This document shows, piece after piece, positions 1,291 through 5,641 of a stretch of 64,000 bases of DNA. The stretch spans positions 6,262,001 through 6,326,000 of the forward strand of contig NZ_CP134609.1 of the NCBI RefSeq assembly GCF_031844705.1, read 5' to 3'. The DNA comes from Streptomyces sp. ITFR-16 (GTDB lineage Bacteria > Actinomycetota > Actinomycetes > Streptomycetales > Streptomycetaceae). A model generated the notes under the pieces. That model did no database searches. It was not told the DNA's origin and was given only the letters and a program-made list of their open reading frames with translations. Each line of letters starts with the position of its first letter. The first letter of the stretch is position 1. The position numbers were made by a program, and so were the translations under genes.

Positions 1291-2415
1291 TCAGACCATG
1301 TACTGCGGCGGCACGGCGGCCGCCTCGGCGAGGACCGGGCCCAGGTTCTCGGTGCGGATGCGGCGGTCCACGTAGAGCAGGCCCGTCACCAGGGGCGGGA
1401 AGATGGCCACGACCAGCTGGCCCACGAGCTGGCCGATCATCAGGGCCAGCACATAGCCGCTCATCGCGACCAGGATCGACGCCGGGTTCGGGTCGTCGCC
1501 CAGATTGGCCGAGCCGAGCATGCCGGAGAACATCCCGAGCAGCGAGAACGGCAGCTGGATCAGATAGCTCGCGACCCCGGCGATCATGCTGGCCAGCAGG
1601 GTGATCCCGAAGATCCGCCACCAGTCCCCGCGCACCAGCTGGGCGGAGCGGCGCATCGAGGCGATCGGCCCCTGGTTCTCGAAGACGGCCACCGAGGGGG
1701 CCAGGGCGAACTTCACCCAGAGCCAGATCCCGAGCGGTGCCGTGGCCAGCGCACCCAGCACGCCCACCACGGCCAGCACCGCGGAGCCCCCGCCGTCCAT
1801 CGCGAACAGGCCGATGATCAGGGCGACGAACCCGGCCCAGGCGAGCACGATCGGGATCATGGCGATCAGACAGGTCAGGAAGACCGCGCCGAACACCGCG
1901 GGCATCCGGCTCCAGGCCCGACGCCAGATGTCGGAGAAGGTGGTCGGCCGGCCGAGCACCGCCTCCTGGAGGACGGCGGGCACCGCCGCGTAGATGATGG
2001 CCGTCGCCACCACCATCGCGACCAGGCCGAGCAGCGCGACCAGGCCGAGGGCCACGAGCACCGCGGTCAGATCCTGCGACCTGGGGTCCTCGTCCGCGCG
2101 GAGCGCGAACAGCCGGTCCAGCGGGTCGGCGACGGCCGAGTACGCGATGGCCGCCGCCACGACCACCACGGCCAGCGCGCCGCCGTAGACGGCCGCCCCG
2201 ATGGCGAACAACTGCTTGCCGTAACGGCCGATGGTGGCGAACGAGCCGCCGAATATGTCCCCGAGCCTCAACGGCCCCAGGGGTATCACCCCGGGCTTCG
2301 GCGGCATCCAGCCACCGCCCCAGCCACCCCACCCGGGAGGCCCAGGCGGTCCTGGAGGTCCCCCGTACGGCGTGCCCCCCTGGGCACCGCCGCCCCACCC
2401 TGCGTCCTGCGCCAC
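1291..2415 (-). CDS. Multi-pass membrane protein with Gly/Pro-rich N-terminus
   Basis: 374 residues. The start is the GTG at 2413-2415 (VAQDAGWGGG), preceded by GGAG at a good distance; the longer reading frame upstream is unlikely to be translated. After a Pro/Gly/Trp-rich cytoplasmic tail of about 55 residues, the conserved part begins at GPLRLGDIFGGSFATIGRYGKQ and contains about six hydrophobic helices. This layout matches actinobacterial proteins annotated as glycerophosphoryl diester phosphodiesterase membrane-domain-like. No catalytic phosphodiesterase domain is present. The function is unknown, and a role in the membrane or envelope is only inferred. Confidence 0.7.
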   Translation of the reverse strand: MAQDAGWGGGAQGGTPYGGPPGPPGPPGWGGWGGGWMPPKPGVIPLGPLRLGDIFGGSFATIGRYGKQLFAIGAAVYGGALAVVVVAAAIAYSAVADPLDRLFALRADEDPRSQDLTAVLVALGLVALLGLVAMVVATAIIYAAVPAVLQEAVLGRPTTFSDIWRRAWSRMPAVFGAVFLTCLIAMIPIVLAWAGFVALIIGLFAMDGGGSAVLAVVGVLGALATAPLGIWLWVKFALAPSVAVFENQGPIASMRRSAQLVRGDWWRIFGITLLASMIAGVASYLIQLPFSLLGMFSGMLGSANLGDDPNPASILVAMSGYVLALMIGQLVGQLVVAIFPPLVTGLLYVDRRIRTENLGPVLAEAAAVPPQYMV

Positions 2416-2524
2416 TGCTGCTCCGTCGGTCAGTCGATCATGTGTCCGGACGGACCACGGTAGCGTCCCGCCGGTCCCGCCATTCCGGGGCGGACGGCAA
2501 CCGCCGTTGCGTACACTCGTACAC

Positions 2525-2845
2525 ATGGGATACGGACTGCTCGCCGCGGCCATAGCGGCGGAGGTGGCCGGGACGACGGCCATGAAGTACAGCGAGGGGT
2601 TCACCCGCCTCTGGCCCTCGCTGATCACCGTCGTCGGCTATCTGCTGGCCTTCTCGCTGCTCGCCCAGACGCTCAAGACCCTGTCCATGGGCACGGCCTA
2701 CGCGATCTGGGCGGGGACCGGAACCGCAGCCGTCGCCTTCATCGGCATGCTGTTCATGGGGGAGTCCGGCAGCCTGCTCAAGCTGGCCGGAATCGTCCTG
2801 GTCATCGCCGGTGTGGTGGTGCTGAACCTGGGCGGTGCGCACTGA
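2525..2845 (+). CDS. Small multidrug resistance (SMR) family efflux protein
   Basis: A 106-residue protein of normal SMR length with four predicted helices. The conserved glutamate lies in the first helix (AAAIAAEVAGTTAMKYSEGF), and the typical GTAYAIWAGTGTA motif marks helix 3. SMR proteins (EmrE/QacE/SugE type) form dimers that export cationic compounds or guanidinium by proton exchange. Whether this is a drug pump or a guanidinium exporter is not clear from sequence. Its TGA overlaps by one base with the ATG of the following TetR gene, so the pump and regulator are translationally coupled. Confidence 0.9.
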   Translation: MGYGLLAAAIAAEVAGTTAMKYSEGFTRLWPSLITVVGYLLAFSLLAQTLKTLSMGTAYAIWAGTGTAAVAFIGMLFMGESGSLLKLAGIVLVIAGVVVLNLGGAH

Positions 2846-3381
2846 TGGCCCGGCGGTACGACCCCGAGCGGCGCGCCCGGATCATCGACGCGGCGATCCG
2901 GGTGGTCGGCGCCCGGGGGATCGCCGGGCTCAGCCACCGCTCCGTCGCCGCCGAGGCCGATGTGCCGCTCGGCTCGACGACCTACCACTTCGCCTCGCTG
3001 GACGAGCTGCTGACCGCCGCCCTGCGCCGCTCCAACGAGAACTTCGCCGGGCTCATGCGCGAGAGCCGGGCCCTTGCCGACCCGGCCGCCGACCTCGCCG
3101 CCGAACTCGCCCGGCTGCTCGGGGAGTTCTTCGGCGGCGGCCGGGGCCGGGCGGAGCTGGAGTACGAGCTCTACCTCGCCGCGCTGCGCCGGCCCGCGCT
3201 GCGCCCGGTCGCCGCCGAGTGGACCGACGCCACGGCCGCCCTGCTGGAACCCCGCACCGATCCGGCCACCGCCCGCGCCCTGGTGGCGCTGATGGACGGC
3301 ATCTGCCTCCAAGCGCTGCTCACCGGCGGGGAGTACGACGAGGCCTACGCCCGCGAGATGCTGGGGCGCATCACCGGCTGA
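2845..3381 (+). CDS. TetR family transcriptional regulator
   Basis: 178 residues. The N-terminal helix-turn-helix is clear: ERRARIIDAAIRVVGARGIAGLSHRSVAAEADVPLGSTTYHF in sense, with the recognition helix around residues 35-47. The C-terminal half is a helical ligand-binding domain. It directly follows and overlaps the SMR pump gene, so it probably represses the pump operon in response to a substrate. Its 3' end overlaps by 11 bp with the convergent HxlR-peroxiredoxin gene. Confidence 0.9.
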   Translation: MARRYDPERRARIIDAAIRVVGARGIAGLSHRSVAAEADVPLGSTTYHFASLDELLTAALRRSNENFAGLMRESRALADPAADLAAELARLLGEFFGGGRGRAELEYELYLAALRRPALRPVAAEWTDATAALLEPRTDPATARALVALMDGICLQALLTGGEYDEAYAREMLGRITG

Positions 3382-4249
3382 CGCCCCGGACCGCTGCCAG
3401 GGCCGTCCGTACGCTCTCCTCGATGTCGGTGACCGGGTACAGCGCCTCGCGGACCACCCGGTCCCGGTCCACCACCAGGGTCAGCCGCTTCAGCCGGCTG
3501 ACGCCCGCCGCGCGGAACGTGGGCAGGCGCAGGGCGGCGGTCAGTTCGAGGCCGGCGTCCGACAGGAGCGGGAAGCGCAGCCGCTCCGCCTCCGCGAACG
3601 CCAGCTGCTCGTCGGGGCGCTGGGTGGAGATGCCGTGCACGGTGGCCCCGGCCGCGGTGAACTCGGCCAACTGGTCGCGGTAGGTGCACGATTCGAGGGT
3701 GCATCCCCGGGCGCCGGGGATGCCGGACCAGCCCGGCGGATAGGACTCCTGGCGGGCGTAGGCGCCCGGGAAGAAGTACAGGACGGTGTACGGCGTGGCC
3801 GCCACCGGGTCCTGCCGCCCGCCGGTGTGCCCCGGCAGGCTCAGCTCCGGCACCTCGGTGCCCACCAGCGCGTGCACCCGCGCGGCCTCCCGAGAGGACT
3901 CCTCCGTGGTCGCCATGGTCGCTCCGTCTCCCGTCACCCAGGCATCGCCCCAGTCCTGGAGCGCGATCAGTACCGGCAGCAGGGCGCGGCCGCGCGGCGT
4001 CAGCCGGTACTCGTACCGGGCGGGCCGGTCCTGGTAGGGCTCGCGGGAGAGCACTCCCGCGTCGACCAGCAGCCGCAGCCGCTCGGTGAGCACCTTGCGG
4101 GACACGCCCAGTTCGTGCTGGAGCGCGTCGAACCGGTGCACCCCGCGTGCCGTGTCCCGCACGATCAGCAGCGTCCACCAGTCGCCGACCACGTCGAGCG
4201 CCTGGGCGATCGCGCAGTCCGCGTCCGCCAGGCTGCCGCGCTGGGCCAT
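3371..4249 (-). CDS. HxlR-type winged-helix regulator fused to a PrxQ/BCP-like peroxiredoxin
   Basis: 292 residues; ATG at 4247-4249 with GGAGGAGG upstream. Residues 8-105 are an HxlR domain (DCAIAQALDVVGDWWTLLIV, then LGVSRKVLTERLRLL) with the conserved N-terminal Cys12 that senses oxidants in some HxlR proteins. Residues 127-290 are a thioredoxin-fold peroxiredoxin with Cys183 and Cys188 in GCTLESC. This spacing is that of PrxQ/BCP, where peroxidatic and resolving cysteines share a helix. One polypeptide thus seems to combine DNA binding and peroxide chemistry. It is divergent from an MFS transporter whose promoter carries a palindrome. Confidence 0.82.
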   Translation of the reverse strand: MAQRGSLADADCAIAQALDVVGDWWTLLIVRDTARGVHRFDALQHELGVSRKVLTERLRLLVDAGVLSREPYQDRPARYEYRLTPRGRALLPVLIALQDWGDAWVTGDGATMATTEESSREAARVHALVGTEVPELSLPGHTGGRQDPVAATPYTVLYFFPGAYARQESYPPGWSGIPGARGCTLESCTYRDQLAEFTAAGATVHGISTQRPDEQLAFAEAERLRFPLLSDAGLELTAALRLPTFRAAGVSRLKRLTLVVDRDRVVREALYPVTDIEESVRTALAAVRGVSR

Positions 4250-4313: not shown

Positions 4314-4342
4314 TTGACCTGAGCAGAGCATGCTGCCATAGT
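4314..4342 (+). promoter_or_regulatory. Sigma-70-like promoter of the MFS transporter gene
   Basis: TTGACC at 4314-4319 and CATAGT at 4337-4342 are separated by exactly 17 bp. The predicted transcription start near 4349 falls inside the palindrome at 4344-4360. Confidence 0.6.
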
Positions 4343-4343
4343 C

Positions 4344-4360
4344 AGTTCCCAAAGGGAACT
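4344..4360. promoter_or_regulatory. Perfect 17-bp palindrome, candidate operator of the HxlR-peroxiredoxin protein
   Basis: AGTTCCC-AAA-GGGAACT is a perfect inverted repeat placed on the predicted transcription start of the MFS gene. It lies in the intergenic region divergent from the HxlR-type gene. That position suits repression of the transporter and possibly autoregulation. The link to this regulator is inferred from position only. Confidence 0.6.
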
Positions 4361-4378
4361 CACGGGGGGGATGTTCGG

Positions 4379-5641
4379 GTGGAGATGCTGCGGGGTGTCC
4401 CGCGCACGGTGCGGCTGCTGGCGTTCGGAGCCTTCTTCAACGGCGTGGTGAGCTTCACCTTCGTCTATCTCTTCGTCTGTCTGACGGGCCCGCGCGGGCT
4501 CTCCGTCGCCCAGGCCGGGGTGCTCACGGGCATCGGCGGCATCGGGCTGGTCGCGGGCAACTTCACCGGCGGCTGGTTCGGCGACCGCTACGGGCACCGC
4601 CGGATGCTGCTGCTCGGCGCCTGTGTGAGCGGGGCCGTGCTCATCGCCCTGCCCCTGCTGCCGCTCGCCGTGCTGTACGGCGTGCTGCCGCTCGCCGAGT
4701 ACGCGACCGGGGTCGTGCGCGCCGCCAACTCCGCGCTGGTCGCCGTCTCCGTGCCCGAGGGCTCCAGGCGCCAGAGCTTCGCCCTCACCCGCTTCGCCGG
4801 CAACGGCGGCTTCACCGTCGGGCCGCCCGTCGGCGCGCTGATCGCGGCGCACTACTCCTACGACTGGCTGTTCCTGATCGACGGGATGGGCACCCTGCTG
4901 TTCGCCGGGTACGCGGCCCGGATCCTGCCGGCCCGCGGCACCGCGCACTCCCGCCCCGCGCAGCGCCCGGGCGGGCCGGGGCTGTGGAGCGAACTGCGGG
5001 CCAGGCCCGCCGTACCGGTGCTGCTCTCGGCCATCGTCTGCGCCGACACCGTCTACCGCCAGCAGTACTCCACCCTCCCCGTCTTCCTCGCCGACCACGG
5101 ACACGGCACCTCGTTCTACGGCTGGCTGATCGGGCTCAACGGAGCGGTCATCCTGTGCCTCGAACTGCCCGCAGCCCACGCGCTGCGCAAGCGGGCGCCG
5201 CTGAGCATCGTCGGCACGGGGCTGCTGCTGGTCGGGGCCGGGTACGCGCTGCTGGGCGCGGGCGCCGGCACGGTGCTCGCCGTCTCGATGATGTGCTCGC
5301 TCAGCCTGGGCGAGATCCTGTACAAGACCCCGGCCACGGCCTATGTCGCCGACCAGGCGCCCGTCCACGCCCAGGGCCGGTTCCAGAGCCTGTACGCGGG
5401 CGCCTCGATCAGCGGACAGGTGCTCGCGCCCCCGCTGGGCGGCGCGCTCTACAGCGCCGCGCCCGCCCTGCTCTGGCCCGCCTGCGCGGTCCTGGCCTGC
5501 GGTGCGGGCGGGGCGGTCCTGGCCGCCCGGCGCCTCGGCCCGTCCCCGTCCGGCTCCCGCTCCCGGCCGGTCCTGCGGCACCCGGTGCCGCGACGCCCGG
5601 ACGCTGAGACCGGTTCGCCGGGGCGGCCCCCGGCCGGTTAG
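4379..5641 (+). CDS. MFS transporter
   Basis: 420 residues with about twelve hydrophobic segments. The loop 2-3 signature of major facilitator proteins is present as [17 protein letters not shown]. The GTG at 4379 is eight bases after a run of seven G and is preferred; the ATG at 4385 is an alternative. The substrate is unknown. The divergent redox-type regulator and the operator-like palindrome over its promoter suggest induction by an oxidant or an electrophilic compound. The last 40 residues are Pro/Arg-rich and cytoplasmic. dapD starts ten bases after the stop. Confidence 0.85.

Follow-up and report, generated by a model that had tools for sequence, protein, structure and literature searches.

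A candidate redox repressor with a built-in peroxiredoxin, and its operator, in Streptomyces

When a transcriptional regulator and a peroxide-reducing enzyme occupy a single polypeptide, does the enzyme inform the regulator, or do the two merely travel together? This question is raised by a gene in the window, that is, the whole 64,000-nucleotide stretch of Streptomyces sp. ITFR-16 DNA analyzed here. An earlier note made from the letters alone had described the product as an HxlR domain fused to a PrxQ-like peroxiredoxin and had suggested a self-contained peroxide sensor. The gene and its domains are as follows.

3371..4249, minus strand: HxlR-peroxiredoxin fusion gene, 292 aa (open frame; Pfam HxlR and AhpC-TSA; full length kept in relatives)
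3935..4192, minus strand: HxlR winged-helix domain, residues 20-105 (Pfam PF01638, E 5.6e-24; winged helix in the model)
3380..3862, minus strand: peroxiredoxin (PrxQ/BCP-like) domain, approximately residues 130-290 (Pfam AhpC-TSA; Foldseek)

On translation the frame runs unbroken from 4249 to 3371. The Pfam HxlR match exceeds the family cut-off, placing the domain in the HxlR (DUF24/MarR-like) family, and the second half matches AhpC-TSA (E 7.1e-15, residues 181-268) and Redoxin (E 1.3e-8). An AlphaFold2 prediction (a single monomer model built from 35 sequences; mean pLDDT 74.9, pTM 0.62) places a winged helix before a thioredoxin fold, with pLDDT below 50 at residues 1-22, 98-114, and 180-182. 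Foldseek ranks M. tuberculosis BcpB first among solved structures (5epf, E 1.6e-12) and PrxQ and AhpE entries next; Pfam and Foldseek thus agree on the AhpC-TSA/thioredoxin fold of PrxQ/BCP proteins. By sequence, the HxlR half lies nearest to 2f2e (PA1607) and 4gcv, solved relatives whose chains of 146 and 168 residues, unlike the fusion, have no peroxiredoxin match. Public plasmid records label two fusion proteins merely “winged helix-turn-helix transcriptional regulator.”

The fusion is genuine, as the note had claimed: one 292-residue frame carries both Pfam domains, and a false fusion created by sequencing error is ruled out by a paralogue in the same genome, by 80 loci from a tblastn contig scan, and by occurrence in 58 of the 199 genomes sampled from the genus. 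Those loci, the best 80 of 161, are each covered across both domains by a single tblastn match at 75-92% identity; 79 of them are named Streptomyces and one just Actinobacteria. Every match in the 58 congeneric genomes crosses both domains (E ≤ 1e-45), and two of the 199 genomes hold two copies. The search for the same fusion also reached beyond the genus: in a class sample, 28 of 394 genomes match at E ≤ 1e-35, 19 of them at full length, and five of these 19 fall in four families outside the window's genus; the other matches are seven with the HTH only, one without it (G727), and one partial with a stop (G558). A phylum sample (whole-genome sampling covered one phylum) gave matches in 72 of 296 genomes at E ≤ 1e-20, with full-length fusions in two, both of the window's genus, and the remaining matches confined to a single half. 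The plasmid records listed include fusions from Streptomyces and Nonomuraea. No split into two genes, the outcome that would have undone the fusion, was seen in close relatives; the nearest cases are L179, where the HTH is absent, and L178, where its N-terminal portion is out of frame.

The paralogue (L172, at G000:C1:1804243-1813064) is 56% identical and has Arg in place of the resolving Cys. It is divergent to an enolase gene, an arrangement shared by approximately ten relatives, with operator-like sites near the start codon. In a quick tree of the peroxiredoxin part, built without bootstrap from 66 fused, 27 stand-alone, and two HTH-less rows, every fused row lies on one side of a single branch (SH-aLRT 95); the tree thus needs no more than one fusion event and fits a single origin. 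Both HTH-less rows nest within the fused clade. One such derivative (L179:3968-4774) keeps both peroxiredoxin cysteines and an adjoining MFS gene; its operator is gone.

A regulator should have a site of action, and the note had pointed to a palindrome at 4344-4360. It is present, and comparison makes it a well-supported specific operator, with its core at no more than one mismatch before 117 of 125 fusion genes.

4340..4364, no strand assigned: 25-bp operator AGTCAGTTCCCAAAGGGAACTCACG (core 4345-4359; comparative evidence)
4338..4343, minus strand: -10-like GACTAT beside the operator, on the fusion-gene side (flank kept in 84 window-clade loci)

The core in the window is GTTCCCAAAGGGAAC (4345-4359); its general form is the 15-bp GTTCC-N5-GGAAC, which flanks lengthen to the palindrome AGTnAGTTCC-N5-GGAACTnACT. 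Counts here and below refer to 125 distinct fusion proteins drawn from 128 collected loci and the window, leaving out L031, L178 and L179 (HTH incomplete), and identical proteins. The upstream search took in the 250 bp before the fusion start, and 89 of the 125 genes have an exact core there. At up to one mismatch it occurs in 36 of 2500 dinucleotide shuffles (one exact), 0 of 124 downstream stretches, and one of 125 coding-sequence starts; the same threshold finds it before none of the 27 stand-alone peroxiredoxin genes and neither of the two HTH-less derivatives. Within its own genome the 25-bp pattern, allowing three mismatches, occurs in two places, the window site and a site before the paralogue; the reversed pattern occurs in one. 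A chance palindrome is rejected by the shuffle controls, flank conservation, and the own-genome scan, together with the blind genome scan described below. The gene thus has the palindromic operator near its own start that is typical of HxlR regulators.

GACTAT probably works as the promoter of the fusion gene; the enolase-linked clade has TACTAT at its position. An operator abutting a -10-like element has a geometry suited to repression. Past this element, a CATG (4329-4332, minus strand; 92-96% conserved in 84 loci) lies approximately 80 bp before the fusion start and could signal either the start of the transcript or a short leaderless frame.

Three of 25 solo HxlR genes inspected (L095, L142, and L297) have the exact GTTCC-N5-GGAAC core before their own start. 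Because their recognition helix is similar, the operator is best regarded as a property of the HTH rather than of the fusion, and the core seems older than the fusion.

Which genes does the operator serve? On the other side of it lies an exporter gene.

4379..5641, plus strand: divergent MFS exporter (Pfam MFS_1, 4.4e-39; start GTG 4379 or ATG 4385)

Neighbors were named by Pfam or tblastn because the gene caller erred on some starts and frames. An MFS_1 exporter adjoins the fusion gene in 72 of the 88 DapD-linked loci that form the window clade, and representatives of other clades have an MFS_3 or ABC-2 exporter; a neighbor search with the window genes found nothing common in most of the distant clades. 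The possibility that the operator is the exporter's rather than the fusion gene's was rejected, as 13 of the 16 DapD-linked loci lacking an MFS hit retain the core at no more than one mismatch, which makes the fusion gene itself the constant target. Separately, positions 2231-3381 hold genes for an SMR exporter and a TetR protein that converge on the fusion gene, and the TetR gene shares 11 bp with its end. Most DapD-linked relatives retain both genes beside the fusion gene.

Scanned blind for the operator with two mismatches allowed, the 199 congeneric genomes returned 61 sites in 48 genomes (three for a reversed control pattern), and these fall in 46 of 58 carrier versus 2 of 141 non-carrier genomes, as raw counts that ignore kinship. 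Carrier status means a match at E ≤ 1e-45, a threshold that, like the limited scoring, some copies may escape; in six non-carriers rechecked, no full-length fusion was found. A fusion gene begins 18-142 bp downstream of fifty of the 61 sites, which are spread over 43 genomes. That leaves nine remote sites in carriers, and each of them stands in front of a member of one O-methyltransferase family (Pfam Methyltransf_3), a further target that the earlier note had missed; neither of the two non-carrier sites does so.

The link to this enzyme was followed at 60 of 129 places (the first 50 in order and ten later carriers). With a methyltransferase at 68% identity or above, the core (up to one mismatch) is present in 16 of 16 carriers and one of three non-carriers; at 60-67% identity, it is present in 2 of 18 carriers and 1 of 23 non-carriers. 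The non-carrier that breaks the pattern, G467, encodes a stand-alone HxlR (58% identical) whose gene has an exact core of its own. The methyltransferase adjoins the fusion gene in five loci (L158, L159, L161, L171, and L180), and four of these belong to the 16 carriers with a close methyltransferase. Its nearest solved relatives are putative O-methyltransferases, with catechol O-methyltransferases lower in the match list. No member of this operator-linked family was found in the window's own genome at E ≤ 1e-60, so the visible targets there are the fusion gene, the exporter, and probably the paralogue. Around the methyltransferase in relatives, a MOSC-domain gene is often adjacent (L227:2106-2966; L159:2296-3123 in minus-strand view), and in two relatives (L229:2320-2991 and L230:3061-3771) the operator is common to a divergent acetyltransferase gene; the L229 product resembles streptogramin A acetyltransferases (Vat, E 2.4e-74, below the curated cut-off), and the L230 product was assigned by 81% identity to it.

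Whether the enzyme half speaks to the DNA-binding half turns on the cysteines.

4214..4216, minus strand: Cys12 codon (Cys in 125/125 distinct fusions)
3701..3703, minus strand: peroxidatic Cys183 codon (Cys in 125/125 distinct fusions)
3686..3688, minus strand: Cys188 codon, resolving-type Cys (Cys in 88/125 distinct fusions)

The earlier note had these three positions right and had placed C183 and C188 in the same helix; the shared helix lacks support in the model, since C183 sits in a low-confidence stretch just before the predicted helix 187-192 that holds C188. Comparison rejects C183-C188 as the conserved sensing pair. C188 lies five residues past C183 in the window protein and is missing from 37 of 125 fusions (34 Arg, one Leu, one Thr, one Ser), with at least four changes at this position needed on the peroxiredoxin tree, whereas C12 and C183 alone are invariant; by sequence, these two form the conserved cysteine pair of the fusions. 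Twenty-six of 27 stand-alone peroxiredoxin relatives retain both peroxiredoxin positions. A further cysteine, C159, occurs in 83 of 125 fusions and is absent from the window protein. The N-terminal Cys is also found in all 24 stand-alone HxlR relatives examined, which makes C12 a family trait whose invariance is no proof of partnership with C183.

P161, R252, and R255 are invariant (125/125), so that the peroxidatic Cys and conserved Arg of PrxQ/BCP enzymes are in place, the catalytic arginine being R252 or R255, a choice that is presumptive. The PrxQ/BCP active-site motif is PxxxTxxC. The fusions depart from it: 100 of 125 have Ala rather than the usual Thr or Ser at position 180, three residues ahead of C183, and an insert of approximately 14 residues separates P161 from C183. 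Stand-alone relatives have the same insert and the same Ala.

Taken together, we judge it somewhat probable that the fusion is a one-component redox repressor of its own gene, the exporter, and, in relatives, the O-methyltransferase, operating through a C183-C12 switch. The HxlR part, presumably as a dimer, would bind the 25-bp palindrome at 4340-4364 and, as the geometry suggests, repress its own gene and the divergent exporter; comparison indicates the same operator before the O-methyltransferase gene in many relatives. Cys183 would react with peroxide, as its invariance and that of P161 and R255 suggest, and its oxidized form would make a disulfide with Cys12, probably of the partner subunit. 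That C12-C183' bond would shift the recognition helices and release the DNA, and derepression would yield more sensor, more exporter and, where present, more O-methyltransferase. The operator and its target genes are the well-supported part of this picture as far as comparison reaches; redox control and the C12-C183 switch we infer. Transfer to C12 is suggested because C12 and C183 are the only invariant cysteines and Cys188 is expendable: a fixed C183 beside an expendable C188 would be expected if another group resolves C183, and C12 is the candidate, as the sole other invariant Cys in the chain. By analogy, the signal might perhaps be redox-cycling catechol or quinone metabolites or phenolics, and the response to methylate and export them, a guess prompted by the target genes and the precedent of YodB and CatR. 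The picture in its full form, a self-contained thiol-peroxidase relay in Streptomyces from C183 to C12 of the partner, with the resolving Cys expendable and repeatedly lost and with export and O-methylation as its output against redox-cycling phenolics, is a tentative one, possible rather than probable.

A little below it in probability, and still unlikely in itself, stands a bifunctional protein with no signal from C183 to the HTH, in which Cys12 or a pocket in the dimer lets the HxlR part detect an electrophile or ligand by itself and the peroxiredoxin comes along as an enzyme that clears peroxide from the same stress. Stand-alone HxlR relatives have C12 and the operator core and work without a peroxiredoxin, the constancy of P161, C183, and R255 is what an enzyme would require, and L179 retains its peroxiredoxin after losing the HTH. 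Yet the resolving C188 is repeatedly lost when fused and almost never in stand-alone relatives, and the two domains remain joined in nearly every copy. A sensor without an interchain disulfide, in which C183 would pair with mycothiol or another small thiol in a mixed disulfide, or go on to sulfinic acid, and so shift the HTH with C12 as a bystander, is improbable: the C188-less forms are 1-Cys peroxiredoxins, and the Foldseek matches include mycobacterial AhpE (1xxu, 5id2), a 1-Cys enzyme that has a mycothiol-exposed structure, but C12 is constant in 125 fusions, albeit as a family trait. That the peroxiredoxin is catalytically dead and helps an ordinary exporter repressor to dimerize or to bind a ligand is very hard to credit, as the insert between P161 and C183 and the Ala at 180 that might suggest it are common to stand-alone relatives and P161, C183, and R255 are invariant.

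The preferred reading, a redox repressor switched through C183 and C12, has a functional parallel in yeast, where oxidant is taken up by the peroxidase Orp1 and its signal reaches the transcription factor Yap1 as a disulfide. The relay proposed for the fusion would work alike, in one chain rather than two proteins; the systems are unrelated. Compared with PrxQ/BCP enzymes such as M. tuberculosis BcpB (5epf), the fusion shares the fold and the C183/C188 spacing of five, and differs in its attached DNA-binding domain, the frequent loss of C188, and the insert before C183.

Among HxlR/MarR-DUF24 regulators, the closest precedents are YodB and CatR of B. subtilis, which likewise have an HxlR domain with an N-terminal Cys. 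According to the available text, YodB prefers the 15-bp palindrome TACT-N7-AGTA, and its Cys6-Cys101' interchain disulfides move the recognition helices (PMC8063818), while CatR and YodB repress catechol and quinone detoxification genes (PMC6212828). The fusion operator core is also a 15-bp palindrome, differing in its letters from the YodB site as given there, and is likewise tied to detoxification-type genes. Unlike in YodB and CatR, the HxlR domain precedes a peroxiredoxin and has no second Cys at its end: no conserved Cys was found at residues 13-158 in the 125 fusions. C183 could act as Cys101' does, because the HxlR end lacks a conserved Cys and the peroxiredoxin starts just there. Formaldehyde sensing of the kind described for B. 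subtilis HxlR, an activator with an N-terminal Cys11 (PMC7835342, available text), is unlikely; by that account the crosslink needs a Lys two residues past the Cys, and the fusions have Ile14 instead (80/80, the best 80 of 161). In the available text of PMC8533066, HxlR and redoxin are separate genes.

Both halves of the protein belong to known families; the combination is an HxlR-type repressor with a built-in peroxiredoxin, and the open-access papers searched gave no account of such a single chain together with its operator and targets. Oxidation relays from peroxiredoxin to transcription factor are usually studied with two proteins, and a bacterial chain that unites sensor enzyme and DNA-binding part with a dedicated operator and defined outputs would be a compact test of the principle. 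Nature supplies variants with and without the resolving Cys, one each in the window's genome, so that the question is open to direct test. The regulon can be read from the operator, whose exporter and O-methyltransferase outputs suggest that antibiotic-producing bacteria have an as yet unstudied protective response, in which the fusion gene, the exporter and, in relatives, the methyltransferase are most likely switched on by oxidizing or redox-cycling compounds.
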